Assembly: GCF_005876855.1 (NCBI RefSeq) | Contig: NZ_QLAE01000036.1 | Location: forward strand, 1-50,329 | Source: Stutzerimonas nosocomialis | GTDB taxonomy: Bacteria > Pseudomonadota > Gammaproteobacteria > Pseudomonadales > Pseudomonadaceae | Direction: 5' to 3' | DNA length: 50,329 nt | Shown here: piece after piece, positions 1,611 to 50,329 of the stretch | Layout: each line of letters opens with the position of its first letter | How positions within the stretch are numbered: the stretch's first letter is position 1 | Made by a program: the position numbers and the translations under genes | The notes under the pieces: generated by a model | The model's input: only the letters and a program-made list of their open reading frames with translations | Databases searched by the model: none | What the model was told of the DNA's origin: nothing

Positions 1611-1760
1611 CGGGATGTCGCTCTACAACTGGTCATGGGGGAGCGAAGATACAGCGGGACCTTCTCCAAAAAAATAGGAAGCGGCCGGTTTCGCATTGTT
1701 TGCTGCGATAAGAAACCCGCAGAGTCATCGTGCAAGCCATCTCGGAATGAGGGCTTACAC

Positions 1761-3094: not shown

Positions 3095-3106
3095 GTAGGA
3101 GCTCAC

Positions 3107-4404: not shown

Positions 4405-4943
4405 AAACGGCGACTCATTCCAGGGGGGGCCTCCCTACGCGTCGTGCTCGCATGTCGTTATGCATTGGCGGAGCGCTGGCACTGGCCTGCGGGTTTGCTA
4501 CTGCGGATTTGAAGGTGATCGAGGACCGTGGAGGCGAGGATGCTTCCCGCTATTACGAAGCGCTAGGCGGCAAGCCCGCAGCCAGGGGGCAGGAGCAACC
4601 CCTGCGACAAATTTCCGAAGCGAACATGCTCCCAGTTCGCGCTCAGCGCGTCACCCCAGGTCGGGTCCAGAGGAGAGAGATAAATGCCCCGGGTCTGCGG
4701 CCCTTCTTCATGGTTGGCGATGATGACCTGTCGAGACAGTGGCTCGTTGAGCGAAGCGAGGCGTTGAGCGCCATGGGAGCCGTGGGCATGGTCGTGAATG
4801 TGGAAACAGCTGGGCGACTCGCTCAGTTGAGGGCGCTAGCTCCTGACTTGAGGATGGTGCCGGCCGCGGGAGATGACGTTGCCGAGCGTTTGGGGCTCGA
4901 CCATTACCCCGTCCTGATTACTGCCAAAAGCGTAGAGCAATAA
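4401..4943 (+). CDS. Integrating conjugative element protein, PFL_4695 family (TIGR03765)
   Basis: 180 residues with an N-terminal signal or anchor (about 17-35). The C-terminal half carries the family signature: RPFFMVGDDDLSRQWL, GAVGMVVNVETAGRLAQLR, LGLDHYPVLIT. In these operons the protein always precedes the TraD coupling protein, here 1 bp away. Probably periplasmic. Function not established for the family as far as I know. Confidence 0.88.
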   Translation: MKTATHSRGGLPTRRARMSLCIGGALALACGFATADLKVIEDRGGEDASRYYEALGGKPAARGQEQPLRQISEANMLPVRAQRVTPGRVQRREINAPGLRPFFMVGDDDLSRQWLVERSEALSAMGAVGMVVNVETAGRLAQLRALAPDLRMVPAAGDDVAERLGLDHYPVLITAKSVEQ

Positions 4944-4944
4944 C

Positions 4945-7113
4945 ATGCCAGTCAAACAACACGCGATAGAGGCGCTACTGAGGCCTCCCGTTGAGCTTTA
5001 TACGGTGTTCGTCTGTTTCTGCGGCGCCTTCCTGAGCATCTACTCACCATGGGCGCTCGCTTTGTCACCGGAGTTCGGTTACGTCACTGCGGTTTTCTTC
5101 CTTGCCTTTGGGGGCGTCCGACTGAGGCAAGGGCTGACTGTGCTCCGGTACCAACGCAACATACGTCGCCTCCCCCGCTACGTGATGACTAGTAAGCAGG
5201 TTCCGGTCAGTAACAAGCGTCTTTTCATTGGCCGTGGCTTTCGGTGGGAGCAGAAGCATACCCAACGGCTGATACAGACCTTCCGACCTGAGTACCGCAA
5301 CTACGTCGAGCCTCGCAGCTCATACCTCTTCGCAAGACGGCTGGAGGAAAAGCTTGAGCGGGCGCCTTTCCCCATAAGTCTGTTGCCGAAGCTGACGAGC
5401 TGGGATGTTTGGTGCAATCCCGTGCGCCCCCTCCCGCCTGTCGGAGGGAGCCCTCGCCTCCACGGCATAGAGCCAGACGAGGTTGAGGTTTCGCTTCCAC
5501 TTGGCGAGCGGGTTGGCCATACCTTGGTACTCGGCACGACTCGCGTCGGCAAGACCCGCCTTGCAGAGGTGTTCGTCACCCAGGATATACGTCGAGGCGA
5601 AGTGACGATCGTCTTTGATCCAAAAGGCGATGCGGATCTGCTCAAGCGAATGTACATCGAGGCCAAGCGTGCCGGCAGGCTCGGCGAATTCTACGTCTTT
5701 CACCTTGGGTGGCCTGACCACTCTGCCAGGTACAACGCTGTTGGCCGCTTCGGACGTATCTCCGAGGTGGCAAGCAGGATCGCCGGTCAGCTGCCGAGCG
5801 AAGGCAACAGCGCTGCGTTCAAGGAGTTCTCCTGGCGGTTCGTGAACATCATTGCGAGAGCTCTAAACGAGCTGGGTCAGCGGCCTGACTACACAAAGAT
5901 CCAGCGACACGTCATCAACATCGAGGGTTTGTTTCTGGAGTACAGCCAAAAGTACTTCGACAGCCGAGACCCGAAGGCCTGGGAAAAGATTGTGGCGATC
6001 GAGGGGAAGCTCAACGACAAGAACATCCCGTTCAACATGAAGGGCAAGCCGATTCGGGTTGTTGCGATCGATCAGTACCTGTCCCAGACGCGAGTCGAGG
6101 ATCCGGTAATGGATGGGTTGCGGAGCGCAGTGCGCTACGACAAGACCTATTTCGACAAGATCGTCGCTTCCCTGCTCCCCTTGTTGGAGAAGCTGACCAC
6201 TGGGCGGATGGCTGAGCTCATATCGCCGGACTACAACGATTTGAACGATCCGCGGCCGATCTTTGACTGGATGCAGATCGTCCGAAAGCGCGGAGTCGTG
6301 TACATCGGACTGGATGCGCTATCCGACCCTGAGGTAGCAGCGGCTGTTGGCAACTCCATGTTTTCGGATCTGGTTTCGGTTGCGGGCCACATCTACAAGT
6401 ACGGCGTCGATGATGGTTTGCCAGGGGCAGATGGGGGGTCTAAAACGCCGATCAACCTCCACGCGGACGAGTTCAACGAACTCATGGGCAATGAGTTCAT
6501 TCCCATGATCAACAAGGGTGGCGGTGCTGGAATCCAAGTCACCGCTTATACCCAGACCATGAGCGATATCGAGGCGAAGATCGGCAACAAAGCCAAAGCA
6601 GGCCAGGTGATCGGTAACTTCAACAACCTCTTCATGCTTCGCGTTCGCGAAACCGCCACCGCAGAGCTACTGACCAGCCAGTTAAGCAAGGTTGATGTCT
6701 ACACCACCACGCAGGTCAGTGGTGCCACCGATACCTCAGATCCCACTGGTAACACCGCGTTTACCTCTCAAACTCAGGACCGCGTGAGCACGGTCACGGT
6801 CCCGCTCATCGAGCCCTCAAACGTGGTGAGCCTGCCGAAAGGCCAAGCGTTTGCCTTGATCGAGGGGGGGAACCTTTGGAAGGTCCGTATGCCTCTCCCA
6901 GCGTCCGATCCGGATGAGGATATGCCGAAGGACTTACAGGCTTTGGCCGGGTATATGAGGAAAAACTACCTGGACGGTGGCGACTGGTGGAACGGGTCTG
7001 GATTCGCTTCACCGATCGCGAATGCGTTGCCTGATGACCTTGAATTGGACCAGGGAGATGTCGCGCAGTCAGTGGTGATGCCTGAGCAGACGCAGCAGGA
7101 GCCGAGCGCATGA
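4945..7113 (+). CDS. traD: Type IV coupling protein, TraD-like (TIGR03743)
   Basis: 722 residues. Two N-terminal membrane segments (about 18-38 and 45-60) anchor a cytoplasmic ATPase. Walker A is GTTRVGKT (197-204); the Walker B region is TIVFDPKGD, and the RecA-like core continues through HADEFNEL and AYTQTMSDIEAKIG. It couples the relaxase-DNA complex to the secretion channel. Length and order match SXT/PFGI-type TraD. The acidic Pro/Gln-rich tail may contact the relaxosome. The stop overlaps the next gene by 4 bp. Confidence 0.93.
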   Translation: MPVKQHAIEALLRPPVELYTVFVCFCGAFLSIYSPWALALSPEFGYVTAVFFLAFGGVRLRQGLTVLRYQRNIRRLPRYVMTSKQVPVSNKRLFIGRGFRWEQKHTQRLIQTFRPEYRNYVEPRSSYLFARRLEEKLERAPFPISLLPKLTSWDVWCNPVRPLPPVGGSPRLHGIEPDEVEVSLPLGERVGHTLVLGTTRVGKTRLAEVFVTQDIRRGEVTIVFDPKGDADLLKRMYIEAKRAGRLGEFYVFHLGWPDHSARYNAVGRFGRISEVASRIAGQLPSEGNSAAFKEFSWRFVNIIARALNELGQRPDYTKIQRHVINIEGLFLEYSQKYFDSRDPKAWEKIVAIEGKLNDKNIPFNMKGKPIRVVAIDQYLSQTRVEDPVMDGLRSAVRYDKTYFDKIVASLLPLLEKLTTGRMAELISPDYNDLNDPRPIFDWMQIVRKRGVVYIGLDALSDPEVAAAVGNSMFSDLVSVAGHIYKYGVDDGLPGADGGSKTPINLHADEFNELMGNEFIPMINKGGGAGIQVTAYTQTMSDIEAKIGNKAKAGQVIGNFNNLFMLRVRETATAELLTSQLSKVDVYTTTQVSGATDTSDPTGNTAFTSQTQDRVSTVTVPLIEPSNVVSLPKGQAFALIEGGNLWKVRMPLPASDPDEDMPKDLQALAGYMRKNYLDGGDWWNGSGFASPIANALPDDLELDQGDVAQSVVMPEQTQQEPSA

Positions 7114-7385
7114 TGATGCAACCCCAAACTCCTACCCGTTCTGAGATCCGACTCGTTGAACTTGCGGCCGAAGCGAATGCACCGTTGTCTTTCGCGCTGG
7201 TTCGACTCGTTGGTTTAGCGCGTCTGGGTTGGCTCGATGGGCAGACATTGTTCGATCAGCTGAATCGCCAGGGTTTGGCCCCGGAATGGGTTAGGCGAAA
7301 CCTCTCCCCGGCAATACGCGTGGTAGATCCCGTTGCCGGCCAAGTGGTTCTGCGCTGCGAAACGGCTGTCGTCACAATACATTAG
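7110..7385 (+). CDS. Small conserved protein between TraD and PFL_4697
   Basis: A 91-residue soluble protein that I do not recognise by family. It starts by 4-bp overlap with traD and ends 9 bp before the DUF4400-type gene, so it belongs to the operon. The sequence is helix-rich at the N terminus and ends in a short beta segment. No signal peptide, membrane segment or metal motif. Confidence 0.65.
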   Translation: MMMQPQTPTRSEIRLVELAAEANAPLSFALVRLVGLARLGWLDGQTLFDQLNRQGLAPEWVRRNLSPAIRVVDPVAGQVVLRCETAVVTIH

Positions 7386-7394
7386 GACCCCGCC

Positions 7395-8144
7395 ATGGCT
7401 GACCTGGCAAACACTGCACAGCAACAACAGATCAGAGAACAAGGTTGGTTAGGGAAGACGATCTCTCTCCCCTTCCGCTTCATCGGGGTGATGCTGCTAT
7501 CTCTGTTTCTCAGCGTCATTTTTGAATGGATCGGCCTCTACTTCTTCTGGGGTGATCAGGGGTGGCACCACGCCCGCGACATGATGTTCCTTGAGCTGGA
7601 CTGGATTTCGGAAGACTTCACAAACAGCCTCATCCTCGAGGAGCCAGGGCTGACAGCAAGCCAACTGATTGAGGCTGCATACAAGGCAGGCTTTGAAGAT
7701 ACCGGCATCGTGGAGTTCTTCCATGGCCAATCCGAGGCCTACCATCTAGAGAGCTTACGGGGCGACGGAAGCTTCGACCAAGCGATCGGCTCGGCCATGG
7801 TGCTAATCGAAGACTATGCCTTGGCTGCTGTGTTTTCCGTTCTCACATTTCTCGTTCGGCTGATTGTGCTAACCCTGACCACGCCATTGTTCCTGATGGC
7901 TATCGCGGTCGGCTTGGTAGACGGTCTGGTCCGAAGGGACATTCGCAGGTTCGGCGCAGGATTGGAGTCTGGTTTCGTCCATCACAGAGCCAGGGCGACC
8001 ATAAAACCCTTGGCGGTAGCGCCGTGGCTGATCTACCTCTCGATGCCAGTTAGCATCAGCCCCCTTCTGATTCTGTTGCCCTGCGCTGCCCTTCTTGCCC
8101 TCGCAGTGAGCGTTACGGTTGGCAGCTTCAAGAAGTACCTGTGA
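7395..8144 (+). CDS. ICE membrane protein, PFL_4697 family (TIGR03747, DUF4400)
   Basis: A 249-residue inner-membrane protein with about four hydrophobic segments: near residues 22-45, 138-160, 165-180 and 212-240. Family motifs include FFWGDQGWHHAR near the N terminus, and DGLVRRDIRRFGAGLESGFVHHRA before the last helices. It is a fixed neighbour of TraD in this element class. Probable role in coupling-protein or channel assembly; mechanism unknown. The 19-bp palindrome begins 4 bp after its stop. Confidence 0.88.
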   Translation: MADLANTAQQQQIREQGWLGKTISLPFRFIGVMLLSLFLSVIFEWIGLYFFWGDQGWHHARDMMFLELDWISEDFTNSLILEEPGLTASQLIEAAYKAGFEDTGIVEFFHGQSEAYHLESLRGDGSFDQAIGSAMVLIEDYALAAVFSVLTFLVRLIVLTLTTPLFLMAIAVGLVDGLVRRDIRRFGAGLESGFVHHRARATIKPLAVAPWLIYLSMPVSISPLLILLPCAALLALAVSVTVGSFKKYL

Positions 8145-8147
8145 TGG

Positions 8148-8166
8148 GTGTTGCGGGCCGCAACAT
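8148..8166. promoter_or_regulatory. 19-bp palindrome, copy 1 of 3
   Basis: GTGTTGCGG-G-CCGCAACAT, matching at 8 of 9 arm pairs. It lies between the PFL_4697 gene and the ATG at 8182. Identical or near-identical palindromes occur at 27792-27810 and 46544-46562. The position just upstream of a start codon suggests an operator. The binding protein is unknown. Confidence 0.6.
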
Positions 8167-8181
8167 GACGAGGAACAAACG

Positions 8182-8481
8182 ATGGCGCGCTATGAATACC
8201 GAACGCATTTCGAACCGCTGACCTATCAGCAGGAAACAATCGGGCGGCTGATGTTTAAGCAGTCCAGAGAAGACTTTGGCGCACCTCAGGGTGCTGCATT
8301 CGCACTCCGGAGTCAGGAGCAGATTTTATCCGCCTTTGGCGAGGACGGGTGGGAATTGGTTTCCACTGAGGCTGTATGGAGGGCGGTTGGGCTGGCTGGG
8401 AACAATCAATCAGATCAGCCGGGTAACGGGCACTGCGTCGTTGACGGCTATCTTTTCTTCTTCAAGAAACAGCTGCCCTAG
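8182..8481 (+). CDS. DUF4177-like small protein
   Basis: A 99-residue soluble protein. It opens with ARYEYRTHF and later has LSAFGEDGWELVSTEAVW, the YEY...GWELVS pattern of DUF4177-type proteins. ATG 8182 follows an ACGAGGA ribosome-binding site; the in-frame extension upstream would run through the palindrome and is rejected. It sits as an insert between PFL_4697 and RAQPRD, where core elements usually have no gene, so it may be element-specific. Function unknown. Confidence 0.6.
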   Translation: MARYEYRTHFEPLTYQQETIGRLMFKQSREDFGAPQGAAFALRSQEQILSAFGEDGWELVSTEAVWRAVGLAGNNQSDQPGNGHCVVDGYLFFFKKQLP

Positions 8482-8621
8482 TTCGGGCTTCAGCGCGTCA
8501 ACAAACCGGTCAACACTTTTCTTTCACGTCAATAAATAGGTGAACCGCGTAGATCGCATTTCCTGCGGATAAACCCGCAGAGGCTTGGCAACCTGACAAT
8601 CAATGTCACGCCAGGATTCAG

Positions 8622-8969
8622 ATGATGACGATCAATGAGGCCCCTCTCCGAAAGCTTACAGCGCCATTGCTCCTCGCCTCGGCACTTCTGCTTTCCCCTC
8701 TTTGCTCAGCCGCCGGGTCGGCAAATGAGCAGGCGAATCTGGAACTCATTCTTCGTCAGCTGAGCATGATCGAGAAGGTTGCGCAGAAAAGCGCAGAGCT
8801 GCCTGCCGCCGAGGGCGACCGTTATCACTTTGATTACGAGCGTCTGCTTGAGGACCTCGGCCAGGTGCGGTCCGGTATCCAAGGCTACCTCTCGCCTGCT
8901 CGCGCTCAGCCACGTGATCCCGGCCAGCTTTCTGGCCATTACACCCGTACTGGGTCTGACAAGCCGTGA
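8622..8969 (+). CDS. RAQPRD family ICE protein (TIGR01690)
   Basis: A 115-residue exported protein. A signal peptide (about 10-30) is followed by a helical domain and the diagnostic hexapeptide RAQPRD near residue 95, which names the family. Probably periplasmic, with unknown mechanism. Two adjacent ATGs (8622, 8625) could both start it. Its stop overlaps the GTG start of PFL_4701. The 140-bp gap upstream contains a CTGCGG/CCGCAG hairpin and may hold an internal promoter or terminator. Confidence 0.9.
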   Translation: MMTINEAPLRKLTAPLLLASALLLSPLCSAAGSANEQANLELILRQLSMIEKVAQKSAELPAAEGDRYHFDYERLLEDLGQVRSGIQGYLSPARAQPRDPGQLSGHYTRTGSDKP

Positions 8970-9208
8970 GCGCGATGACAACGGCGCAGAGCGCTGCCTT
9001 CAAGGCAACGGGCGGCTTTGCTGCTGACAAGCTTTCGGATCTGGTCGTTGGGATCGTCCTAGCTGTACTGCTGCTCTGGGGCGCATGGGCAGTCACGACT
9101 GCCTACAAGGGCTGGGCTAGGGGGCAGGTGGAAAAGTCCGCGCTGGCGTCCCTGGTGGCGCGGTTCGCGATGATCTACCTGCTCCTGCTCGCGCTACTGG
9201 TCTCTTAA
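8966..9208 (+). CDS. ICE protein, PFL_4701 family (TIGR03758, DUF3262)
   Basis: An 80-residue membrane protein with two hydrophobic segments (about 27-45 and 63-80) and the family start AAFKATGG. GTG 8966 overlaps the RAQPRD stop (GTGA). Small proteins of this size and topology resemble VirB2/VirB3-type pilin or channel components; the pilin assignment is inference from position and shape. Confidence 0.85.
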   Translation: MSAMTTAQSAAFKATGGFAADKLSDLVVGIVLAVLLLWGAWAVTTAYKGWARGQVEKSALASLVARFAMIYLLLLALLVS

Positions 9209-9255
9209 ACCGATTTTTAGCTGTGTCACCCAACCAATGCCCAAGGAGGCATCTC

Positions 9256-9642
9256 ATGAAAGCAACCGCGCGTATCTCACCAATGGCCCGTGTAAGCGAC
9301 TGGGTAGGCTCGAAGAAGAACCAGGGGCTGCTGCTTGCCTCGATCGGAATGGGTGCGATGACCTCCGCACGCGCCGATCTACCAGAGGTCGAGCAGCCAT
9401 CCCGTGGAGGCAGTGGAATCCTCGAGCTTTGGCAGAACTACGGCTATGACGTGATCCTGCTGCTGGCTCTTGCTGTTTGCAGCATCGCCTTCCTTGGCGT
9501 GGCCTATCACTCATTCAACGTGTATGGCGAAGTCCAGACGCGGAAGGCTACATGGGGTCAATTCGGGGCAACCGTCGGCGTCGGCGGCATCTTGCTCGTA
9601 CTGGTCATCTGGATGGTCACCAAAGCCTCCGAGATCCTTTGA
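9256..9642 (+). CDS. ICE membrane protein, PFL_4702 family (TIGR03745, DUF2976)
   Basis: A 128-residue protein with a signal-like segment (about 22-40, ending SARA), a Gly/Ser-rich stretch, and two membrane helices near residues 60-80 and 100-122. ATG 9256 is chosen because AAGGAGG stands 7 nt upstream. The architecture fits a VirB2/TraA-like pilin in G-type systems. Neighbours on both sides are in the standard order. Confidence 0.85.
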   Translation: MKATARISPMARVSDWVGSKKNQGLLLASIGMGAMTSARADLPEVEQPSRGGSGILELWQNYGYDVILLLALAVCSIAFLGVAYHSFNVYGEVQTRKATWGQFGATVGVGGILLVLVIWMVTKASEIL

Positions 9643-9672
9643 CGATAGCTCCTGCTCCCGAGGACAGATCCA

Positions 9673-10080
9673 ATGATGGACAGTCATGACCCGATCAGCT
9701 TCACATCAGAGGGCACGGTGAATTTTCTGCCGAACCGCCTCAACAGGCAGCCCATTGTTGTGCTGGGTTTGACGGCCAATGAGCTGTTCTTCGTAGGGCT
9801 GTCCTCGGCGATTGCAGGCCTGGTTCTCGGCGTTCCTTTCGCCATCGTTTTCTCTTCCATTGCCATGGTCCCGACAGTAGCGCTCGTAGCGGTGTTTCTG
9901 GGCATCGGCTTGGGCGGGCGAGTGCTGCGGAGGGTGAAACGAGGCCGGCCGGACGATTGGTTCTACCGCAATCTTCAGTGGCGGATCGCAAACCGCTTTC
10001 CTCTGCTGATGGCATGGACGGGTGGGCAGGATCTGATCAAGCGCTCAGGGGTCTGGTATCACCGGCGAGGGGAAAGATAG
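9673..10080 (+). CDS. Conjugative transfer region protein TIGR03750 (DUF3487), TraL-like
   Basis: A 135-residue inner-membrane protein. The family start is NFLPNRLNRQPIVVLGLTANEL. Two close membrane helices (about 37-80) are followed by a basic cytoplasmic tail (RRVKRGRPDDWFYRNLQWRIA). The layout equals TraL/VirB3 of other type IV systems. Starts at either 9673 or 9676 are possible. The TAG stop overlaps the GTG of the next gene. Confidence 0.88.
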   Translation: MMDSHDPISFTSEGTVNFLPNRLNRQPIVVLGLTANELFFVGLSSAIAGLVLGVPFAIVFSSIAMVPTVALVAVFLGIGLGGRVLRRVKRGRPDDWFYRNLQWRIANRFPLLMAWTGGQDLIKRSGVWYHRRGER

Positions 10081-10742
10081 TGAGCAGAGTCAGAAACGAG
10101 GTGCGCCGCCTCGAGGGGCACGTGACCTCACTGAGAATTGCGTTGCTCTTGGTAAGCATGCTTGCTGCCTATGGCATCTACGGTATGAAGACAGCGCCGG
10201 ACAGCCTGAATATTCACGTGCCGCCTGATCTCCGGTCAGGTAGCTCGCGTATGTGGTGGGACATTCCGCCGGAGAATATCTACGCGTTCACCAGCTACAT
10301 CTTCCAGCAGCTCAATAGCTGGCCGGCCGATGGAGCCAAAGACTACAAGCGAAATATCCACGCTTTACAGAATTACCTCACTCCAGCTTGCAAGGTGTTC
10401 CTTGAAGGTGACTACGAGTTTCGTAACAAAAACAATGAGTTGAAAGGTCGGGTCCGTGGTGTTTATGAGCTGCCTGGCCGGGGCTATGCCGATGACGAGG
10501 CTCTGCGAGTACAGCAGCAGTCGATTAACGACTGGATCGTCAATCTCGATCTGGCAACGGACGAGTACTACTCCTCCGAGCCGGTGAAGCGGACCTTCGT
10601 TCGCTATCCGATTCGAGTCGTTCGCCTGGACAAGGACGCGGAAAAGAACCCGTGGGGGTTGGCCCTGGACTGCTACTCAAGCGCGCCGATGCGTATCGCA
10701 ACTCCTGATGAACAAGCTGCAACATCCACGGAGGTCAAGTGA
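10080..10742 (+). CDS. ICE protein, PFL_4703 family (TIGR03746, DUF2895), TraE-like
   Basis: A 220-residue bitopic protein. It has a short cytoplasmic N terminus, one membrane helix (about 18-35), then a periplasmic domain with VPPDLRSGSSRMWWDIPPENIYAF split over residues 48-75. Shape and position correspond to TraE/VirB8 assembly factors. The GTG at 10080 is preferred because it overlaps the previous TAG; the longer frame would overlap 41 codons of TIGR03750. It overlaps PFL_4704 at 10739-10742. Confidence 0.88.
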   Translation: MSRVRNEVRRLEGHVTSLRIALLLVSMLAAYGIYGMKTAPDSLNIHVPPDLRSGSSRMWWDIPPENIYAFTSYIFQQLNSWPADGAKDYKRNIHALQNYLTPACKVFLEGDYEFRNKNNELKGRVRGVYELPGRGYADDEALRVQQQSINDWIVNLDLATDEYYSSEPVKRTFVRYPIRVVRLDKDAEKNPWGLALDCYSSAPMRIATPDEQAATSTEVK

Positions 10743-24100: not shown

Positions 24101-24415
24101 CGTATGGGCCGTTTTTAGGTGCTCATAAATAGGGTGGTCGGCCAGATCATCTTTTCCGTTGATCGACTGTGCGAAAAGGTAAAAGGTTGGAACAGCGGAA
24201 AGGGTAAGGGGTTAATGGAATAGGGCTTCAAAGGTAAAAGCCCTACCCTGAAAGGGTTACAACGACCCCCCTGGTAATCGCCTCAGAGGACAGATAACTC
24301 GTGAAAAGGCCAAAGGGCAAAGTGCAAAGGGGCGGCAGCGTGCCTTCGGCAGTGCCGTGTATGAAGTATCAGCCTGGACAGCGATATCTGCTGGAGTGCA
24401 GATATGCGTAGCCGA
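24101..24415. other. Purine-rich non-coding region before the relaxase; possible oriT
   Basis: No gene seen in these 315 bp. It has many AAAGG-type runs, an inverted repeat TAGGGCTT/AAGCCCTA (24221-24228 with 24238-24245) followed by CCCTGAAAGGG, and a second inverted repeat ATATCTGC/GCAGATAT (24384-24405) at the relaxase start. Inverted repeats next to a relaxase gene are typical of oriT, but I cannot name a nic site. Confidence 0.35.
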
Positions 24416-26281
24416 ATGTTGGCGTGGATCCCATTCATTCGCGCGGCGCCGGCTGACAATGCGCAAAGAAACGCTGATGGTTTCGTTCCGTACATGTCTG
24501 CGGACGAGCTGCTTGCCACGCCGCGTCGGCAGTTGTTGCTCGAAAACATCTGGCACCGCACGTCGGTGAACCGGGATCAATTCAACAAACTCTACCTCGC
24601 CCCTATCAAGCGGTACGCGGAAATAGTCCAGCAGTTACCAGCATCCGAAAATCATCATCATGCCTACTTGGGCGGCATGATCGACCATGGCCTGGAAATC
24701 ATCGCGTATGCCCTAAAACTGCGTCAGTCCTTCGTCTTGCCGGTCGGCAGCACACCAGAAGTTCAGTCGGCCCAGTCCGAGGCTTGGTCCGCGGCGGTTG
24801 TGTTCGCAGCGCTCCTGCACGACATAGGCAAGGTAGCAGTCGATGTCAAAGTACAGCTCCGCAGCGGTGATATCTGGCGTGCATGGGACGGCCCGATGAA
24901 GGAGGACTACCGATTCCAGTATGTGAAAGGCCGCCAGTACAAACTGCATGGGGCTGCTGCAGGACTGTTGTATACGCAGGTGATTCCTTCCGAGGTGATG
25001 AACTGGTTGTCGCAGTATCCAGAGCTCTGGGGTGCTTTGCTGTACGTCCTCGCTGGCCAGTTTGAACACTCCGGGGTTCTTGGGGACATCGTTGTAAGGT
25101 CTGACCAAGCGTCGGTCGCCCATGAGCTTGGCGGCAATCCAGACCGAGCTGTGGCAGCACCGCGTAACACGCTCCAGCGTCAGCTTCTCGATGGGCTGCG
25201 CTACCTGATGAAGAACGAGCTCAAGTTGAATCAACCAGAGGCTTCCGATGGCTGGATCACGGCCGATGCGATCTGGCTGGTTAGCAAGACCGTTTCGGAT
25301 CGGCTGCGTGCTCACCTTCTCAGCCAGGGGATTGAGGGTGTTCCGGACCGCAACTCAACGCTCTTCAATGTCTTTCAGGATAACGGCCTGATAGTGGCGA
25401 ATCCCGCTGGGAAGGCCATCTGGGATGCCGAAATCCTAAGCCCTACGGGGTGGAAGAACACATTCACATTCTTGAGGGTTTCGCCTTCACTCATATGGTC
25501 AGCTGGAGAGGATCGTCCAGAACCCTTCGGTGGATCGGTTCAAGTTCTAAATGAAGAACCTGCCGAATCAGAAAGTCCGAACCTAGCACCCCTCGCCCAT
25601 GCGGCTGAGGATCTGGCCGAAAAGCCCAGCTGCAACGTTCAGCAAGGGGATGTAGTTGCGGTAGAGCCGCCAGTAACGAAACCTGCAGCAGCCGATGACC
25701 ATGGCGCGCATGCCACTGAGATGGATGATACGGACTACCTTCTGGACCTGATGGATATGCGTGAAGCACCGATGACCTCGGTTCCTGCCCCGGCTATGCC
25801 GGGTAGATCCGAGGTCCAACCTGCGGAGCCGGAGGATCAGCCTGTAACTGCCCCGGCGACAACAATTGCCGGGCCGGCCGGTGGCACGCTGGGGCACCAG
25901 TTCATGCACTGGCTGAAGGTCGGTGTGGGCACCCACAAGATCATTATCAATGATGCAAAAGCCAAGGTTCACACTGTTAACGGCACGGCTTTTCTGGTGA
26001 CTCCTGAAATATTCAGAAGGTATGCCCAAGAGCATCCGACGCTCTTCTCCGCGAAGGCTGGCGAAGGACAGCCCTGGCTGCAGGTCCAAAAGTCGTTCGA
26101 AAAGCTGAAGCTTCACGTTAAGAAGAACAACGGACATAACATCTGGACGTGCGAAGTCTTTGGGCCTCGGAAAACGAAAACACTGAAGGGTTATATGCTA
26201 AAAAAACCAGGCGACGTATTCACAACTGAGATGCTGGATAACCCCAACCTAAAACTTTGTGAGAGTCAGGACGAGCATTAG
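24416..26281 (+). CDS. MobH-family relaxase, TraI_2 (TIGR03760)
   Basis: 621 residues. The N-terminal relaxase domain has the MobH histidines SENHHHAYLGGMIDHGLE (His80-82, His91) and the HD motif LLHDIGK (His135-Asp136), with LHGAAAGLLYTQ and VLAGQFEHSGVLGDIV further on. An acidic Pro/Glu linker (about 375-475) precedes a C-terminal winged-helix TraI_2_C domain (about 485-615). It nicks oriT and pilots the strand through TraD. ATG 24416 fits the family start MLxW; an in-frame ATG at 24404 is possible. Confidence 0.92.
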   Translation: MLAWIPFIRAAPADNAQRNADGFVPYMSADELLATPRRQLLLENIWHRTSVNRDQFNKLYLAPIKRYAEIVQQLPASENHHHAYLGGMIDHGLEIIAYALKLRQSFVLPVGSTPEVQSAQSEAWSAAVVFAALLHDIGKVAVDVKVQLRSGDIWRAWDGPMKEDYRFQYVKGRQYKLHGAAAGLLYTQVIPSEVMNWLSQYPELWGALLYVLAGQFEHSGVLGDIVVRSDQASVAHELGGNPDRAVAAPRNTLQRQLLDGLRYLMKNELKLNQPEASDGWITADAIWLVSKTVSDRLRAHLLSQGIEGVPDRNSTLFNVFQDNGLIVANPAGKAIWDAEILSPTGWKNTFTFLRVSPSLIWSAGEDRPEPFGGSVQVLNEEPAESESPNLAPLAHAAEDLAEKPSCNVQQGDVVAVEPPVTKPAAADDHGAHATEMDDTDYLLDLMDMREAPMTSVPAPAMPGRSEVQPAEPEDQPVTAPATTIAGPAGGTLGHQFMHWLKVGVGTHKIIINDAKAKVHTVNGTAFLVTPEIFRRYAQEHPTLFSAKAGEGQPWLQVQKSFEKLKLHVKKNNGHNIWTCEVFGPRKTKTLKGYMLKKPGDVFTTEMLDNPNLKLCESQDEH

Positions 26282-27791: not shown

Positions 27792-27810
27792 GTGTTGCGG
27801 GCCGCAACAC
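27792..27810. promoter_or_regulatory. 19-bp palindrome, copy 2 of 3
   Basis: GTGTTGCGG-G-CCGCAACAC, perfect arms. It lies 32 bp upstream of the SRAP gene start and 100 bp from the divergent DUF6685-like gene. Same motif as at 8148 and 46544. Confidence 0.65.
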
Positions 27811-27842: not shown

Positions 27843-28484
27843 ATGTGCAGTCGTTACGAAGCCCCTACCCCAGGGCGACTCCGTGAAGAGTTTGGTGTCG
27901 AGTTCGATGCTCAGGGAAAGCTCGAATTGTGGCCAGGTTATGCCGGGCCGTTCCTGCGCAAGCCCCGCAATGTCGATCCGTACGATGACGCCGTGCTGCC
28001 ATTTGAAGCTGAGGTGGGCGTGTTTGGGCTCTTGCCATTCTGGGCCGACAAGAAGCTGGCACGGTCTACTTACAACGCCCGTTCTGAGACAGCCTCAGTC
28101 AAGCGGTCATTCAAGGAGGCATGGAAGAAGGCTCAGCACTGCATCATTCCTGCGGTGGCGATCTATGAGCCCGACTGGCGAACAGGAAAGGCTATTCCTA
28201 CCCGCATCTCCCGTACCGATGGCCGGCTGCTAGGGATAGCGGGCCTATGGGAGGAAAGGAAAACTGCTACAGGTGATAGAGAACTGTCCTTCTCCATGCT
28301 GACGGTGAATGCCGATGACCATGCGCTGATGCGCAACTTCCATCGCCCAGGGCATGAGAAGCGCATGGTGGTGGTGCTTCCTCAAGGGCTATATCAGGAT
28401 TGGCTGACAGCTCCCGCTGAGATCAGCAGTGAATTCATGACCCAGTATCCAGCCGATAGGCTCGTTGCCGATCCCCAGCCTTGA
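27843..28484 (+). CDS. SRAP-domain abasic-site processing protein (HMCES/YedK-like)
   Basis: 213 residues. The protein must start at ATG 27843 so that Cys2 follows the initiator Met; in this family Cys2 forms a covalent link with abasic sites in single-stranded DNA. Other active-site residues are present: Asn78 in STYNARSET, Glu109 in AIYEPDW, His171 in RPGHEKRM. Length is usual for bacterial members. It could protect single-stranded DNA during conjugation or SOS. The 19-bp palindrome upstream suggests control by an element-encoded regulator. Confidence 0.9.
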   Translation: MCSRYEAPTPGRLREEFGVEFDAQGKLELWPGYAGPFLRKPRNVDPYDDAVLPFEAEVGVFGLLPFWADKKLARSTYNARSETASVKRSFKEAWKKAQHCIIPAVAIYEPDWRTGKAIPTRISRTDGRLLGIAGLWEERKTATGDRELSFSMLTVNADDHALMRNFHRPGHEKRMVVVLPQGLYQDWLTAPAEISSEFMTQYPADRLVADPQP

Positions 28485-44654: not shown

Positions 44655-45998
44655 ATGTCCCCCATCGATCTCACTCCGCCTCATTCGGTTGAAGCGGAAC
44701 AGGGGGTGCTGGGCGGACTCATGCTGGATAACTCCACATGGGATGACATCGCTGACACCCTGGCCGCTGATGATTTCTACATTCGCGAGCACCGGCTGAT
44801 CTTCAAAGCTATCGCGGACTTGGCGAAGGAAGGTACACCCTTCGATGTTGTGACCCTTTCAGAGAAATCTGTGGACGTCCAACAGGAAGTAGGACTGGCT
44901 TACCTTGGTGAGCTGGCTATGAACACGCCTTCAGTCGCGAATATTCTGGCTTACGCGAAGATCGTTCGCGAAAGATCTCATTTGAGGAATCTGGTAACGC
45001 TCGGCTACGAATGCAGCCGCCAGTCGTCCGCGCCGGGAGCGGTTGCCACAGATGTTCAAGAGTCAGTCGAGCGGCAGCTGTTTGCTCTCGGACAGAATCG
45101 CCTCACTGCCTTCACTGATATTGGGCAGATGCTGAGTGCAGTGGTCGACAAAATCGATCACCGATTCAACTCGGGTGAGGACATTACTGGCGTTACAACC
45201 GATCTCTCCGATCTGGACGAGCTTCTGGGAGGCTTGCAGCCCAAGGATCTTGTGATCGTTGCGGCCAGGCCTTCCATGGGCAAAACAGCCTTTGCGCTGA
45301 AACTGGTTAACGCTGCATTGGCTCGTACCAGCAAATCTGCACAGGTCTTCAGCCTGGAGATGCCGGCCGAGCAGCTTGTGTTCCGATTCCTTGCCTTCCT
45401 GGGCCGTATCGACCTGTCATTGTTGACTCGCGGTCGATTGCAGGATGACGACTGGCCAAAGCTTACTGCTGCTGTGGCAGCGCTACATAGCTATGGTGAT
45501 CGCCTTGTCATAGATGACACGCCTCAGCTCACTCCAACTGAGCTTCGGGCACGTTCACGCCGTGCGGCTCGTAAGTTTGGCGACCCCGCACTGATCATGG
45601 TCGATTACCTGCAGTTGATGCAGAGCTCGGGTAAAGAGAACCGCAACCTAGAAATAGCTGACATCTCAGCCTCGCTTAAAGCGTTGGCCAAGGAGATGGA
45701 TTGCCCCGTGGTTGCACTGTCGCAGTTGAATCGAAGCCTTGAGCAACGCGCTAACAAGCGCCCCCTGAACGCGGATCTCCGGGAATCCGGGGCTCTGGAA
45801 CAGGACGCTGACGTGATCATGTTCATTTACCGGGACGAGGTTTATCACCCTGACTCTGAGGACGCTGGTATCGCCGAGATCATCATCGGTAAGCAGCGAA
45901 ACGGTCCTCTTGGCACTGTACGCACTGCGTTTCTTGCTGCCGAGACTCGATTCGAAAACCTCGACGCGAGCTATCGCTCGCTGGGAGTTTCGCGATGA
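44655..45998 (+). CDS. Replicative DNA helicase, DnaB family
   Basis: 447 residues, full-length DnaB. N-terminal domain (HSVEAEQGVLGGLMLDN...), RecA core with Walker A ARPSMGKTAF (near 207), Walker B ALIMVDYLQLM (near 315), and the loop ALSQLNRSLEQRANKRP. It unwinds DNA at the fork. An element-encoded DnaB is standard in PAPI-1/PFGI-1-type elements. Overlaps the next gene by 4 bp. Confidence 0.93.
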   Translation: MSPIDLTPPHSVEAEQGVLGGLMLDNSTWDDIADTLAADDFYIREHRLIFKAIADLAKEGTPFDVVTLSEKSVDVQQEVGLAYLGELAMNTPSVANILAYAKIVRERSHLRNLVTLGYECSRQSSAPGAVATDVQESVERQLFALGQNRLTAFTDIGQMLSAVVDKIDHRFNSGEDITGVTTDLSDLDELLGGLQPKDLVIVAARPSMGKTAFALKLVNAALARTSKSAQVFSLEMPAEQLVFRFLAFLGRIDLSLLTRGRLQDDDWPKLTAAVAALHSYGDRLVIDDTPQLTPTELRARSRRAARKFGDPALIMVDYLQLMQSSGKENRNLEIADISASLKALAKEMDCPVVALSQLNRSLEQRANKRPLNADLRESGALEQDADVIMFIYRDEVYHPDSEDAGIAEIIIGKQRNGPLGTVRTAFLAAETRFENLDASYRSLGVSR

Positions 45999-46522
45999 AC
46001 AGCGCTCTTTCCGACGTCAGGGCTCACCAGCTGCCGAATGTTTCCTACGAAGAAGTAGCAGCAACTGCTCGTACTGATATACAGCTCTTCGAGTTGAACC
46101 AGCTGATGACCAAGCTCTATCACAGCGACCAGGCTGAGCCGGTTTGCGGCGCCCTGGCAAAGATACTCAAGCCTCTGGATCAGTTGGGCTTGGTACGCCT
46201 CAGCTCTACCTCTCCGGTCCTTGGGCAGCCAGTTACGGTGACTCGAATTTGCCCGCCCAGCGTGCTTCTCCACTTCTTCTGGGGTGACTGGCTCCCTGCT
46301 TATTACAAAACGCTCGGGCGTCAGCCGAGCGTCAGCCACTCTGCGACCCCAGCGCTCTGCACAGTTGTGCTTGAGCTGCCAGAGAGCCAGCCAAGCCTCG
46401 CGGACGTGCTATTCGAGTTGAGCTTGCGGCTGGAGGTTGCCGGTGTGGCCGAGGTCGTTCACATCGAAAGCGGCGATGTCGCTTCTCATAGCACTCATCT
46501 GGATACGGAGGTGAAGCCGTGA
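45995..46522 (+). CDS. Unknown protein between the helicase and Arc-like genes
   Basis: 175 residues, soluble. An N-terminal helical part (TDIQLFELNQLMTKLYHSD) is followed by a mixed region with CPPSVLLHFFWGDWLPAYY near residue 90 and an acidic end. Overlaps by 4 bp at both ends, so it is locked in the maintenance operon. No family recognised. Confidence 0.6.
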   Translation: MNSALSDVRAHQLPNVSYEEVAATARTDIQLFELNQLMTKLYHSDQAEPVCGALAKILKPLDQLGLVRLSSTSPVLGQPVTVTRICPPSVLLHFFWGDWLPAYYKTLGRQPSVSHSATPALCTVVLELPESQPSLADVLFELSLRLEVAGVAEVVHIESGDVASHSTHLDTEVKP

Positions 46523-46773
46523 GCCTCCCCTCTCAAGAGCAGAGTGTTGCGGACCGCAACACTGACCGTTTCACACTCCGCCTACCTGCTAACGGCATGC
46601 ACGAACGGATCGCCGAACAAGCGCGACTCAACCACAGAACGATGAACGCCGAAATTATTGCTCAGCTACAGAGCGCCGACTTCTTGCGGCAGGAGCTTGA
46701 TCGGTTGCGTCGTCTAGTAGACGCGCTGTTCGGTTCGAATGCATTTCCGGAGATGAATAATGGCCAAGAATAA
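46519..46773 (+). CDS. Arc-family ribbon-helix-helix DNA-binding protein
   Basis: 84 residues. TDRFTLRLPANGMHERIAEQARLNHRTMNAEIIAQL (split 15-52) is an Arc/Mnt-type ribbon-helix-helix fold, with a helical tail for dimerisation. GTG 46519 overlaps the previous gene (GTGA) and the 3' end overlaps parB by 14 bp. Its own codons 9-15 carry the 19-bp palindrome, so it is one candidate for the protein that binds that motif. Confidence 0.8.
   Translation: MSLPSQEQSVADRNTDRFTLRLPANGMHERIAEQARLNHRTMNAEIIAQLQSADFLRQELDRLRRLVDALFGSNAFPEMNNGQE
46544..46562. promoter_or_regulatory. 19-bp palindrome, copy 3 of 3
   Basis: GTGTTGCGG-A-CCGCAACAC, perfect arms, only the centre base differs from copies at 8148 and 27792. 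It lies inside the start of the Arc-like gene and 198 bp before parB. Confidence 0.65.
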
Positions 46774-48394
46774 AAAACTCGACATCCAGCAGATCGGCAA
46801 CAAGCTGCTGTCGCCGGGTTTCGCTGGGCGAAATGCTCCGCATGAAAACGTTGCCCCCTCGGACCCGGTCGCAGATACCCCTATGGTCCTGACACTGGAT
46901 CAGCTGCGTCCGTATGACAAGAATCCCCGGATCAACAAGAACCCCAAGTATGACGAGATCAAGGAGTCGATTCGGGCTCGAGGGCTTGATCAAATACCTG
47001 GCATCACGCGCCGGCCAGGAGAAGAGTTCTACATCATCAGAGATGGGGGGAATACTCGCCTATCGATCCTCAACGAGTTGTGGCTAGAAACTCGAGATGA
47101 TCGATTTTTCCGCCTTAATGTGCTGTACCGACCCTGGCAGGGCGAGATCCGCGCGCTGACCGGGCATCTGGCGGAAAACGATGTTCGAGGAGGGCTCTCC
47201 CTAATTGAACGCGCGCTTGGCGTTGAGGCGGCGCGAGCCGAGTACGAACAGGCCGAGGGCGGTCCGATATCTCAGCGAGAGCTTTCTCGCAGGCTGAAGG
47301 CCGATGGGTATCCGATTTCTAACTCGCACATCAGCCGGATGCAGGACGTAATCCGCTACCTTCTTCCGGCAATTCCGCAGGTTCTGTATGCAGGGCTAGG
47401 TATCGACCCGGCGGTGAAGCTCATAGGTTTGCGTAAAGCCGCTGAAGCAGCTTGGGCAAAGCACAAGCCGGCCTCCGAGAACGAGTTCGACGAGGTGTTC
47501 ATCGAGGCACTGAGCGCCTTCAATGAGAACGAGGACACCCTCAACTATCAGCGCGTGCTCGATGAGCTTACCGGACAAATGAGTGACGCCCTGGGTGTGG
47601 ATTACAACCTAATTTCTCTCGATATTCAGGAGGAATCCAGCAAGTCTCGCCGCCCAGAACCAACAGTTGTTCCGCCAACTGCAGCAGAGTCTGCTGCGCC
47701 CGATTCGCAAGTCGCTGGTAGCGGTGAATCGGAAATCGCGCCCGGGCAAGAAGAAACGAGTGCTCAGCCTGGCAACCACTCCGGCCTCAAGCAAGAAGAG
47801 CAGGAATCGATTCCTCAAAAGACAGCTGCCGCTGTCACTAAAAATGGAAACCTCAGGAAGAAAGACCCCGCGGCGACAGAGGTATCTTCTTCTTCAGGAT
47901 CTGCAGGCGAGACCTCGACTGGCACAACCCATTTGGATATCTGGCACATCGGCCAATCGCTTGATGAGCCGAGCGAGCTTCGCGAGGAGATCGTGGAGCT
48001 CGTTCGCGGCATAGCTGCAGAGGTCGGCCTGCCAGACAACTTCCAACCGATAGATGGCGGCATCGGGTTTCACTATGCACGCCCTTGGAGCGAACAACCC
48101 GAAGAGCTCAGCAACACCGCGCTGTCGACACTGATGCTGTTCGAGTCACTCAGTGGAGTTTATGCCGTAGTGCAGGAGTCGCTGGAGGCCGGAACCGCGC
48201 AGGCGGAAGGCCTTATGGAGTTTCAGTTTTCGGCCCACCTGGGCCAGCTTTTGATGGGCCACCCCGCTGAAGTGAGTGAGGGCACGCCCTCCTCTAGTGG
48301 CAGGTTAAGCGATGCTGCCGTGATCAAGTTGTTCCGCGTAATCCGCTTGGCAAGACGCCTCATCGATCTAGATAGCGACCTTCGTCAGGAGTAG
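46760..48394 (+). CDS. parB: ParB-family partition protein, PFGI-1 class (TIGR03764)
   Basis: 544 residues. The N-terminal ParB/Srx domain has LTLDQLRPYDKNPRINKNPKYDEIKESI (split 50-80), RRPGEEFYIIRDGGNTRLSIL and LYRPWQGEIRALTGHLAEN. A helix-turn-helix region (ISQRELSRRLKADGYPISNSHISRM) follows, then a long low-complexity linker (about 290-390, rich in S, E, P) and a helical C-terminal domain. It binds centromere sites and stimulates ParA. Longer than chromosomal ParB, as usual for this class. Confidence 0.92.
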   Translation: MAKNKKLDIQQIGNKLLSPGFAGRNAPHENVAPSDPVADTPMVLTLDQLRPYDKNPRINKNPKYDEIKESIRARGLDQIPGITRRPGEEFYIIRDGGNTRLSILNELWLETRDDRFFRLNVLYRPWQGEIRALTGHLAENDVRGGLSLIERALGVEAARAEYEQAEGGPISQRELSRRLKADGYPISNSHISRMQDVIRYLLPAIPQVLYAGLGIDPAVKLIGLRKAAEAAWAKHKPASENEFDEVFIEALSAFNENEDTLNYQRVLDELTGQMSDALGVDYNLISLDIQEESSKSRRPEPTVVPPTAAESAAPDSQVAGSGESEIAPGQEETSAQPGNHSGLKQEEQESIPQKTAAAVTKNGNLRKKDPAATEVSSSSGSAGETSTGTTHLDIWHIGQSLDEPSELREEIVELVRGIAAEVGLPDNFQPIDGGIGFHYARPWSEQPEELSNTALSTLMLFESLSGVYAVVQESLEAGTAQAEGLMEFQFSAHLGQLLMGHPAEVSEGTPSSSGRLSDAAVIKLFRVIRLARRLIDLDSDLRQE

Positions 48395-48399: not shown

Positions 48400-48999
48400 A
48401 TGCCGAATTCTTCGTCGGTTCAACAACCGCTAAACCAAGCGATCGTGCATCAAGTTCTGCACAATCTTCGCACTGGGCAGCTTCGCAAGTGCAAAGCTAT
48501 GGGGTTCGGTGACGCTGAACTAAAGGCGTTCCAATCACCGAAATACTTGTCGGTTTTGATGAATTCTGCGGTGACCTGGTGTGAAGTCAAGGTGAACTCA
48601 GAGGTCGTGCAGCGCTTGATTGTTCAAGCCGATCGCACGGAAGAGCAGAATCGGCTCATTGACCGAGCCCTTCGCCTAGGGGCAAGCACAGCTTTGATCT
48701 CCCAGCTGTTCGGCTTAACGAACCAGGAGATCAAACATCGGCGGGTGGTTCTTGATGTCCCGCAGCGCCGCGGACGTTGGCCCATTTTGGACGCTGACAC
48801 AGAGCGCAGCCTCTGGCATCGATGGGACTACCTGTCCAAAGAGAACAGCGTTGACATAGACGATCCAATGGCACTTCTGGACGTCGTGATTCTCCTCGCT
48901 GAAGAGTTTGCGAACCTACCCTTGGCTGACGGTTCGGTAGTTAGCCTCTCTCAGATTTGGAGCACGATCACCGGCTGGGCGGATCAAGGTCTGCTCTGA
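48400..48999 (+). CDS. DUF2857 protein
   Basis: 199 residues. Family pattern: AIVHQVLHNLRTGQLRKCKAMGFGDAEL, SAVTWCEVKV, LIDRALRLGASTALISQLFGLTNQEIKHRR (split across 15-130). The last resembles a helix-turn-helix, so it may bind DNA. It always lies between ParB and the STY4528 gene in this class. Its stop overlaps the next ATG (TGATG). Confidence 0.88.
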   Translation: MPNSSSVQQPLNQAIVHQVLHNLRTGQLRKCKAMGFGDAELKAFQSPKYLSVLMNSAVTWCEVKVNSEVVQRLIVQADRTEEQNRLIDRALRLGASTALISQLFGLTNQEIKHRRVVLDVPQRRGRWPILDADTERSLWHRWDYLSKENSVDIDDPMALLDVVILLAEEFANLPLADGSVVSLSQIWSTITGWADQGLL

Positions 49000-50329
49000 T
49001 GAGCACTTTGACCCCGCCAGTTCGACGGGGGTTGCCGCCTAGGCTCCCCCTCTCGCAGCTGATTGCCTCTGCTTCCGAGCAGATCAAACGTGATTTGATT
49101 GAGCGGAAGGCATCTTCGGAAAGAACCCCCGTCAGAGAGGGAAAGCCCGCATGTCAGCCAGGCGAGGGACTCTTGTTCACCGGAAACCCGCACGAGGCAG
49201 TGCCTCGGCGGCTACTGCTTGACCCTAGGTTGAGCCCCTTGGAGCGCAATGCCTGGCAGATCTTCAGGATGCTCATTCGCGACGATGGTCTTACAGCCTT
49301 TCCTAGCTATGACCACCTGCAGCAGTTTCTGTCAGCCCAACCCTTCAAACGCGCGTCCCGCGAATCTGTAGCTAAGTGCCTGACTGTCCTCCGACTAACC
49401 AGGTGGCTGACACTTTGCTCCCGACTACGCGATGAAGCTACAGGTCAAAATCAGGGCAATGTCTACATGCTTCATGACGAGCCTATTTCATGCTCGGAAG
49501 CAGCAGAGCTTGACCCCGGATACCTTGAGCTCATCAGTACCAGCTTCAGCCACGCAAACAAGACAGTGCAAGTTCTGGCCGAGCACGAGCTTGCGGAGGT
49601 GCTGAGAGATCAGAATCTTGATCACGATGCCCTTCCGTCCCGACTGGGTGTCTTTGCCGAGCGGCTGTCGCGCCAGGCATGGGTAGCTCAGCAAGAGGAT
49701 ATCGGGGCTCAGTTCGGTTTCCGAACTAGGCCGAGTTCGCAAGCTGACCGGCCCAGTTCCGAATCCGAACTAGGCCGAACTGGGCCGAGTTCGGATGATG
49801 AGAAGTCGGTTCAAGCCAGAGAATTCAACAGGGTTCGGAAACCGAACTCAAACAGTACGGTTAATACAGATACTTCTGTTTGTAAAAACACAGTACTGGG
49901 GCAAGCCGAACCGGGCCTAAGTCCTTCGTTGGCCGCTTTGCCAGAGGACCAGAGAAAAAAAGCTCTGGATGCGCTGCGGCTCCTTGAACCCGAACTAGGC
50001 CAAGCGGTGCTTGAAGAATGGGCTGCGCGTTGTTCAACCAAAGCCATACGCAAGCCGCTCGGGTATCTGCTTGGACTGATTCAGAGGGCTATCAGAGGGG
50101 AATTCGTGGTTTGGGCAGCGCAGCAAAAGGGCTTTCCACACAGCGCAACTCGAAGTGCCAATACACGTTCACTTCGGCATGCCTCGCCCTCCTCGGCCTC
50201 GGTGCCTACTTGGGACCGCCAGGTCTCAGAGAGAGGCTCCCTTGAGGAGGGACGCTTGGGACTTGCTGACATACGCAACATGCTCAAACCCTGGATGAAC
50301 GATTCCAAGCGAAACGGGATCGATGAATA
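48999..50329 (+). CDS. STY4528-family pathogenicity-island replication protein (3' truncated by window)
   Basis: At least 443 residues, running off the window end. Motifs: LFTGNPHEAVPRRLLLDPRLSPLERNAWQIFR near 65-95, AFPSYDHLQQFL, SRESVAKCLTVLRLTRWLTL (winged-helix region), and GNVYMLHDEP. A linker (about 238-285) with repeated RPSS/SSESELGR units follows, then the C-terminal LGYLLGLIQRAIRGEF. DNA in the linker has iteron-like repeats (49711-49847). Likely element replication initiator or accessory factor, which would give the element two replication systems. Confidence 0.85.
   Translation, partial: MSTLTPPVRRGLPPRLPLSQLIASASEQIKRDLIERKASSERTPVREGKPACQPGEGLLFTGNPHEAVPRRLLLDPRLSPLERNAWQIFRMLIRDDGLTAFPSYDHLQQFLSAQPFKRASRESVAKCLTVLRLTRWLTLCSRLRDEATGQNQGNVYMLHDEPISCSEAAELDPGYLELISTSFSHANKTVQVLAEHELAEVLRDQNLDHDALPSRLGVFAERLSRQAWVAQQEDIGAQFGFRTRPSSQADRPSSESELGRTGPSSDDEKSVQAREFNRVRKPNSNSTVNTDTSVCKNTVLGQAEPGLSPSLAALPEDQRKKALDALRLLEPELGQAVLEEWAARCSTKAIRKPLGYLLGLIQRAIRGEFVVWAAQQKGFPHSATRSANTRSLRHASPSSASVPTWDRQVSERGSLEEGRLGLADIRNMLKPWMNDSKRNGIDE
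49711..50001. repeat. Iteron-like repeats inside the STY4528 gene
   Basis: Palindromes AGTTCGG-TTT-CCGAACT (49711-49727) and GTTCGG-AAA-CCGAAC (49833-49847), with the 12-mer CCGAACTAGGCC three times (49721, 49765, 49990). The density is far above neighbouring coding DNA. Confidence 0.6.

Follow-up and report, generated by a model that had tools for sequence, protein, structure and literature searches.

What role could a 19-bp palindrome play when it recurs at distant places of one and the same element? The question was raised by GTGTTGCGG-N-CCGCAACAC, which is present at positions 8148, 27792 and 46544 of a 50,329-bp contig of Stutzerimonas nosocomialis (NZ_QLAE01000036.1), the whole of which is called the window hereafter. 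The element belongs, by its backbone, to the PFGI-1/MobH class of Stutzerimonas plasmids. The findings presented here lead us to favour, with slightly less than even confidence, a reading in which the palindrome would be the iteron-like origin recognition site of an element-encoded dimeric protein, STY4528 being the likeliest, and in which the dispersed copies would titrate or pair this protein.

Copies in the window and in complete plasmids

When up to 3 mismatches were allowed, the 19-bp pattern matched the window at 4 places (8148 with 1 mismatch, 27792 and 46544 with 0, and 25338 with 2), whereas 0.03 matches were expected by chance and 4 were reached in 0 of 100 dinucleotide shuffles. A preliminary description of this DNA had reported the palindrome at three distant loci, the 8148 copy with one mismatch, had considered three copies to exceed chance and had noted that two of them stand just before start codons; all of this was borne out (Table 1). 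The third copy, which it had assigned to the maintenance operon, could be placed more precisely within the coding sequence of an Arc-like open reading frame (ORF), not between genes. The match at 25338, inside the mobH relaxase gene, was dropped as a poor palindrome. The exact 15-bp core GTTGCGGNCCGCAAC occurred at 6 places in the organism's own genome (4,755,882 bases, 86 contigs): three in the window (identical with contig C36) and three on C53, a further contig belonging to the element (19-mers at 12584, 17865 and 20628), with none elsewhere in the 4.76 Mb. Cores with one mismatch were found at 3 further places (2 of them off the element) versus 4 for a control pattern and are therefore at background level. 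A similar density in host chromosomes, named beforehand as an outcome that would speak against an element-wide operator, does not apply, the exact core being absent outside the element in its own genome.

The closest relatives in the plasmid collection were three complete Stutzerimonas plasmids deposited as circular, NZ_CP063359.1 (pZDHY95-VIM-2, 88 kb), NZ_CP091175.1 (95.5 kb) and NZ_CP076684.1 (117 kb), with TIGR03761 identities of 99.6, 98.2 and 98.2%, respectively. They carried 8, 8 and 9 exact cores at eight homologous places. Three of these follow ssb, the SNF2 gene (ahead of topB) and the STY4534 block; two precede DUF4177 and SRAP; one falls within the 5′ coding part of the Arc-family gene; and the last two form a pair, 56-57 bp apart, in the interval from STY4528 to PFL_4669. 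The earlier count of three thus holds for the window, while complete relatives carry eight places. The ninth core of NZ_CP076684.1 belonged to a second SRAP copy. The ends of this record (1-10700 and 106586-117255) contained repeated genes in one order (SRAP, DUF6685, IS5 and others) at an offset of about 106,585 and were 57% identical, ungapped, at offset 106586; the additional core probably comes from an untrimmed overlap of the circular record. Contig C36 stops one base before the first palindrome of the pair and reversed C53 begins one base past the second, and therefore the two missing copies lie in the assembly gap. Between STY4528 and PFL_4669 the relatives had only these two copies, with no tandem array of many units at fixed spacing.

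Further conservation analysis compared one plasmid from each of two lineages, setting the 14 specified core positions of each site against 60-bp flanks. The cores differed at 0 of 112 positions and the flanks at 103 of 911 (11.3%; P 1.5e-6), while the outer bases and the centre of the sites differed at 4 of 40. These figures argue that the palindrome is kept at eight places under constraint on its core. Approximate placement figures for NZ_CP063359.1, obtained with an incomplete PLSDB gene table and a retyped gene list, with the cargo at 55075-77600 excluded and gene overlaps of ≤3 nt tolerated, put 7 of the 8 sites outside genes (P 1.3e-5, with 15.2% of the backbone qualifying), 5 of the 8 at 0-15 nt past a stop codon (P 6e-8, for an interval picked after the sites were seen) and 2 of the 8 at ≤60 nt ahead of a start (P 0.08).

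Spelling and symmetry across related elements

A search of 84,980 species genomes found the exact 19-mer in 22 stretches, 18 of them from Pseudomonas or Stutzerimonas and 4 from unrelated taxa, about four being expected by chance according to our own estimate. At least three family members within 3 mismatches, many arrayed, were present in 14 of the 22 stretches, and 16 also carried at least part of the STY4528 or TIGR03761 gene. Within the own genus, 2 of 56 genomes had an exact match, namely the own genome and G017, with which C53 has 2,168 bp around 12584 in common at 97.9%. Perfect palindromes were then listed at 73 of the 81 TIGR03761 places in 298 family genomes (the own element and 7 truncated, edge or weak places were excluded) and at 20 of 26 loci from other families of the class (the own locus and 5 others excluded; two of the 20 are near-identical copies from one genome), imperfect sites being missed by such listings. 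With every perfect palindrome taken into the positional bins, the TTCGG type described below included, a perfect 17-bp odd-centred palindrome lay ≤500 bp upstream of TIGR03761 in 55 of 73 loci and in the +1500 to +2000 bin in 35 of 73, compared with background bins of 0-4 of about 70 loci beyond -2500 and 0-7 of 73 beyond +3000. When TTCGGA palindromes and four arms judged unrelated by eye were set aside, 68 of the 73 loci had a site in the zone from -1800 to +3200 and 5 had none; a same-arm copy was found downstream of the TIGR03761 start in 42 loci, and copies further off within 20 kb in 5. In the other families, an upstream palindrome was present at 12 of 20 loci, according to a list read by eye.

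The spelling varied from element to element (CTATCCCC, CTATACCC, TGATGCCA, TGATTCCC, TGTTAACA, TGTTGCGG and others), with 26 distinct dominant arms over 80 loci (68 + 12), 32 of which had CTATCCCC. Dispersed copies within one element were spelled alike: TGTTAACANTGTTAACA has all of its 17 copies in G067 inside 42 kb, and a 42-kb stretch of G094 holds 17 as well; CTATCCCCNGGGGATAG occurred six times in G193, three for each of its two ICEclc copies. Arrays of a single element may mix spellings (L098, L015). The Pseudomonas array of L015 (4543-5580) has 31 listed slots, several of them fillers, and strongly divergent palindromes whose symmetry is mostly perfect. Every copy found in G111, G253 and G265 lay within about 6 kb of TIGR03761, in 80-120 kb read. 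By these comparisons, related elements mostly own a differently spelled palindrome near this place, and some disperse it.

The interval between STY4528 and PFL_4669 holds the putative origin of replication (oriV) of two members of the class. In pKLC102, 16 palindromic units follow each other in exact 57-bp steps (14474-15329) between STY4528 and PFL_4669; 14 are palindromic at all nine pairs, 2 have one mismatched pair, and the last unit is the exact 19-mer of the window. No family member was found outside the array in 1-50000 and 53533-103532 (50001-53532 not covered). The 57-bp repeats of pKLC102 have reportedly been published. For PFGI-1, passages of Mavrodi et al. 2009 (PMC2647930) place a putative oriV upstream of PFL_4669; it has four 46-bp repeats in which AGTGTTGTGGGCCACACCACT occurs, and its A+T-rich half carries palindromes of the kind seen in the window at 49712 and 49833. 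These TTCGG...CCGAA palindromes are thus present beside the origin region in the window, as in PFGI-1. A TTCGG-type palindrome also lies upstream of TIGR03761 in 22 of the 73 related loci, and TTCAAA...TTTGAA versions occur at some loci of other families; this second origin palindrome may drift in spelling too.

Change within arrays was analysed in 28 arrays at 27 loci, comprising 263 slots, of which 12 with fewer than 6 pairs were dropped (one more slot with an N had been removed before that), and changes were counted per locus. In this set, which was selected via perfect palindromes, is of common ancestry and includes near-duplicate loci, pair changes relative to the commonest unit of each locus were both-sided and complementary in 157 cases, one-sided in 64 and both-sided but non-complementary in 6. 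Over the 110 varying pair columns, 539 of 607 cells were paired, compared with 360 ± 9 in 1000 shuffles (maximum 387). A-C mismatches numbered 20 and G-T mismatches 12, with part of the loci unoriented, so that a strand preference is not established. The symmetry of the arrays is kept, for whatever cause; template-switch repair could yield the same pattern.

Proposed origin recognition and competing roles

Family identity, place, restriction to the element and constraint on the core come from the data, and on them we infer binding, replication and copy control as follows. The two copies between the STY4528 gene and the PFL_4669-DUF3158-ssb operon would form the origin proper, with six single copies sitting mostly at gene borders around the plasmid circle. 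An element-encoded dimeric DNA-binding protein, most likely the neighbouring STY4528, would bind the palindrome to start replication, and the dispersed copies would titrate or pair it and so hold down the copy number. Out-of-origin iterons hold down copy number on other plasmids. Mantel and partial Mantel tests of the site against ParB, DUF2857, STY4528, TIGR03761, DUF3158 and SSB in 46 dereplicated loci, with the TTCGGA palindromes and the four by-eye arms again set aside, gave partial correlations from -0.09 to 0.21 with no clear winner, the largest, still small, being that of STY4528 (0.21).

Several points weigh against an origin role. Iteron sites are as a rule direct repeats, one of the palindromes is located within a coding sequence, and the single copies just past stop codons (5 of 8 sites) are left unexplained. 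No palindrome was seen at 5 of the 73 family loci and 8 of the 20 class loci, several of these 8 being short contigs. The AlphaFold model of STY4528 (pLDDT 46) was too poor to use, and sequence and profile searches returned no solved STY4528 relative. In the passages at hand, oriV is only putative for PFGI-1 (PMC2647930) and termed postulated for pKLC102 in a review (PMC7685784). ICEclc replication after excision is, in another excerpt, reported to involve TraI and oriT1, and yet ICEclc retains three palindromes.

A broader proposal, which we advance as doubtful, is that the palindrome may be a class-wide self-recognition site whose letters are rewritten between elements while the two-fold symmetry is kept, in some elements with all dispersed copies changing in concert. 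If true, it would be a fast-evolving incompatibility code, read by an element protein for which symmetry counts more than sequence; through the dispersed copies, gene junctions all round the plasmid would be coupled to replication or copy control.

The preliminary description had proposed an element-wide operator, comparable to the KorB or KorA sites of IncP plasmids, that would tie transfer, repair and partition together. In such a reading, a global regulator (ParB-like, Arc-like or the AcaB-like PFL_4669) would bind the copies and thereby coordinate the operons for transfer, repair and replication. We consider this rather unlikely. Copies do precede the DUF4177, SRAP, topB and PFL_4669 genes, the 17 copies of the G067 palindrome occupy 14 separate places over 42 kb of one element, mostly between ORFs, and the single spelling of all exact copies in dispersed elements points to a reader acting in trans. 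PFL_4669 matches Pfam AcaB, and a weak model of an AcaB-like homologue (pLDDT 62) had E. coli AcaB (6n8a) as its first Foldseek hit, with a probability of 0.99 but an E value of 0.27; sequence searches found no solved relatives of the AcaB-like and ParB proteins, and the AcaB-like profile gave a single weak coiled-coil match (2yo3, E 0.043). In contrast, the sites favour the 3′ side of genes, one place in G067 lies between convergent ORFs, and up to 16 units upstream of one gene, as in pKLC102, exceed what an operator needs. ICEclc is informative here: a part of PMC9286271 describes eight promoter regions that share a 27-bp transfer-competence motif, whereas the three exact palindromes of this element, two upstream of ORF95213 and one between ssb and topB, coincide with one of these regions (inrR). 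A general role as BisDC operator was rejected on the same count of just three exact sites in ICEclc. The element-wide half of the original proposal therefore stands, the palindrome being confined to the element in its host and constrained at eight places, but a role as transcriptional operator gained no support from an oriV repeat unit in pKLC102 and, in similar form, in PFGI-1, from sites that follow stop codons in 5 of 8 cases, or from the one of eight promoter regions in ICEclc.

Self-complementarity itself could be what is used, as a hairpin or cruciform in single-stranded DNA (a priming site or single-strand promoter) or in RNA past stop codons. This is unlikely, even though array changes are mostly symmetric, copies lie right past stop codons and near ssb, and 10 of 10 tested 17- or 19-mers folded as DNA hairpins of 7-8 bp at -4.5 to -7.8 kcal/mol (two with one outer base supplied by hand). 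Dispersed copies in one element keep the spelling of the core beyond what pairing demands, A+T-rich versions fold more weakly, and the mismatch types establish no strand preference. The descent, near-duplicates and selection of the arrays count here as well, and template-switch repair could symmetrise their arms without selection.

We hold it to be distinctly improbable that the ParB-like protein binds the palindromes as parS-like sites of a partition centromere. The ParA and ParB genes lie near the origin region, and ParB proteins are known with both arrays and dispersed sites. The partial correlation between ParB and the site was nevertheless -0.04, and the closely related elements L116 and L119, whose ParB proteins are 99% and DUF2857 proteins 100% identical, have main array arms TGATTCCC and TGATGCCA, respectively, which is weak evidence that ParB may not read the changed arm positions. 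We also count against a centromere that the ICEclc ParB homologue acts with BisC as a transcription activator, according to excerpts of PMC7423338.

An origin of transfer (oriT) of the MobH relaxase, of which the palindromes would be all or part, came into consideration through the two oriTs and two palindrome clusters of ICEclc. The oriT described for ICEnahCSV86, which resembles the ICEclc one, is marked by CCCTTT/GCCTTT repeats (PMC9298801, in the portion available), unlike the palindrome. Such repeats are most densely clustered away from the palindromes, with 7 at the 5′ end of the putative ICEclc traI and 5 at that of mobH in each of the three plasmids and in the window, where the cluster begins at 24199. 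The second-densest ICEclc cluster (4 repeats, at 3374366) falls about 1 kb from palindromes, in the DUF3158/inrR gene, and because of this weaker cluster we raised our estimate slightly, from minimal to very low. Equally remote is a dispersed repeat of REP-like or neutral kind that does nothing for the element; it would fit palindromes that are mostly intergenic and just past stops, as REP sequences are, but not their confinement to the element in the host, the eight places shared by two lineages with an unchanged core, and the one place conserved across the class. These explanations are not strictly exclusive of one another.

Gene context and comparison with known systems

The features of the window are collected in Table 1. 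Contig C53 codes for PFL_4669/TIGR03761, DUF3158, SSB, an SNF2 helicase, topoisomerase III and STY4534, partner genes to the ParA-DnaB-Arc-ParB-DUF2857-STY4528 block with which the window ends. Its PFL_4669/TIGR03761 protein (C53:21611-22330) matches the AcaB transcriptional-regulator family of Pfam with an E value of 2.7e-75. PLSDB types the three complete plasmids as non-mobilizable despite their annotated MobH relaxase, TraD and PFGI-1-class transfer region. The window also carries a large type ISP restriction-modification enzyme (28595-33472; PADLOC REase_MTase_IIG, E 0), which adjoins the SRAP and DUF6685 genes, and a unit with a Tn3-family transposase, a resolvase and two phosphotransferase genes of the APH and APH_6_hur families (34702-40032), which we take to resemble a Tn5393-type strAB unit. 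A Y-family DNA polymerase-like protein of the impB/mucB/samB family (40142-41254) lies between this resistance unit and the ParA gene.

Table 1. Palindromes, genes and other features of the window
Feature	Position	Strand	Setting	Profile match
Palindrome copy GTGTTGCGGGCCGCAACAT	8148..8166		3 nt past the stop of a TIGR03747-type gene (8142-8144), 15 nt ahead of the DUF4177-like ATG (8182); also at this place in three complete plasmids	
Palindrome copy GTGTTGCGGGCCGCAACAC	27792..27810		32 nt ahead of the SRAP ATG (27843)	
Palindrome copy GTGTTGCGGACCGCAACAC	46544..46562		Early in the coding sequence of the Arc-like ORF (46519-46773), not intergenic	
Second origin-type palindrome GTTCGGTTTCCGAAC	49712..49726		Inside the STY4528 gene	
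Second origin-type palindrome GTTCGGAAACCGAAC	49833..49847		Inside the STY4528 gene	
STY4528-family replication protein gene (putative)	48999..50329	+	Truncated at the contig end; immediately upstream of the origin pair	NF040582, E 4e-104
Right contig end	50310..50329		One base short of the palindrome pair (spacing 56 bp) present in complete relatives between STY4528 and PFL_4669	
Arc-like protein, distant TprA relative, candidate binder	46519..46773	+		PF03869, E 9.6e-12; NF052309, E 6.4e-10, under its cut-off
ParB-like protein TIGR03764 (BisD-like by gene order), candidate binder	46760..48394	+		E 1.4e-111
DUF2857 protein (BisC-like)	48400..48999	+		E 1.8e-45
DnaB-type replicative helicase	44655..45998	+		
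SRAP protein	27843..28484	+		PF02586, E 4.7e-29
DUF4177-like protein	8182..8481	+		Match under the Pfam cut-off
MobH relaxase, PFGI-1 class	24404..26281	+		NF041494, TIGR03760
oriT-type cluster of CCCTTT/GCCTTT repeats	starts 24199		5 repeats, 5′ end of mobH	

The putative origin repeats of PFGI-1 are already in print, as the passages of PMC2647930 show; the open-access literature searched, with partial coverage from which we claim no absence from print, yielded no mention of the dispersed copies, the class-wide pattern or the symmetric drift. In Pseudomonas and related bacteria, elements of the PFGI-1/ICEclc class are carriers of adaptive and of resistance genes; their replication and self-limitation are poorly known. 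A site that is simple to compute and marks the putative origin, in each element's own spelling, in most of the class members examined offers a handle for typing origins and for studying incompatibility and copy control; through the palindrome the postulated oriV becomes directly testable.

Compared with known systems, the window agrees with the oriV of pKLC102 and PFGI-1 in the gene interval from STY4528 to PFL_4669 and in the palindrome family, one pKLC102 unit being the window 19-mer itself; the family of the window differs in having two origin copies and six dispersed ones, whereas pKLC102 has none outside its array in the parts covered. The transfer-competence motif of ICEclc is likewise common to one element and has one region in common with the palindrome, upstream of ORF95213/inrR, but the palindrome occurs three times and at none of the other promoters; the two were compared by place, not by the letters of the motif. 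With the KorB/KorA sites of IncP the palindromes share their dispersal over a conjugative plasmid, here with absence from the rest of the host, and they differ in sequence, in lying more often past stops than before starts, in the origin arrays of their relatives and in a reader that is only a candidate. Iteron plasmids, finally, offer the likeness of a repeated, element-specific site beside a replication gene with further copies elsewhere, although their sites are plain direct repeats where ours are palindromes, and the Rep-type function of STY4528 is putative.
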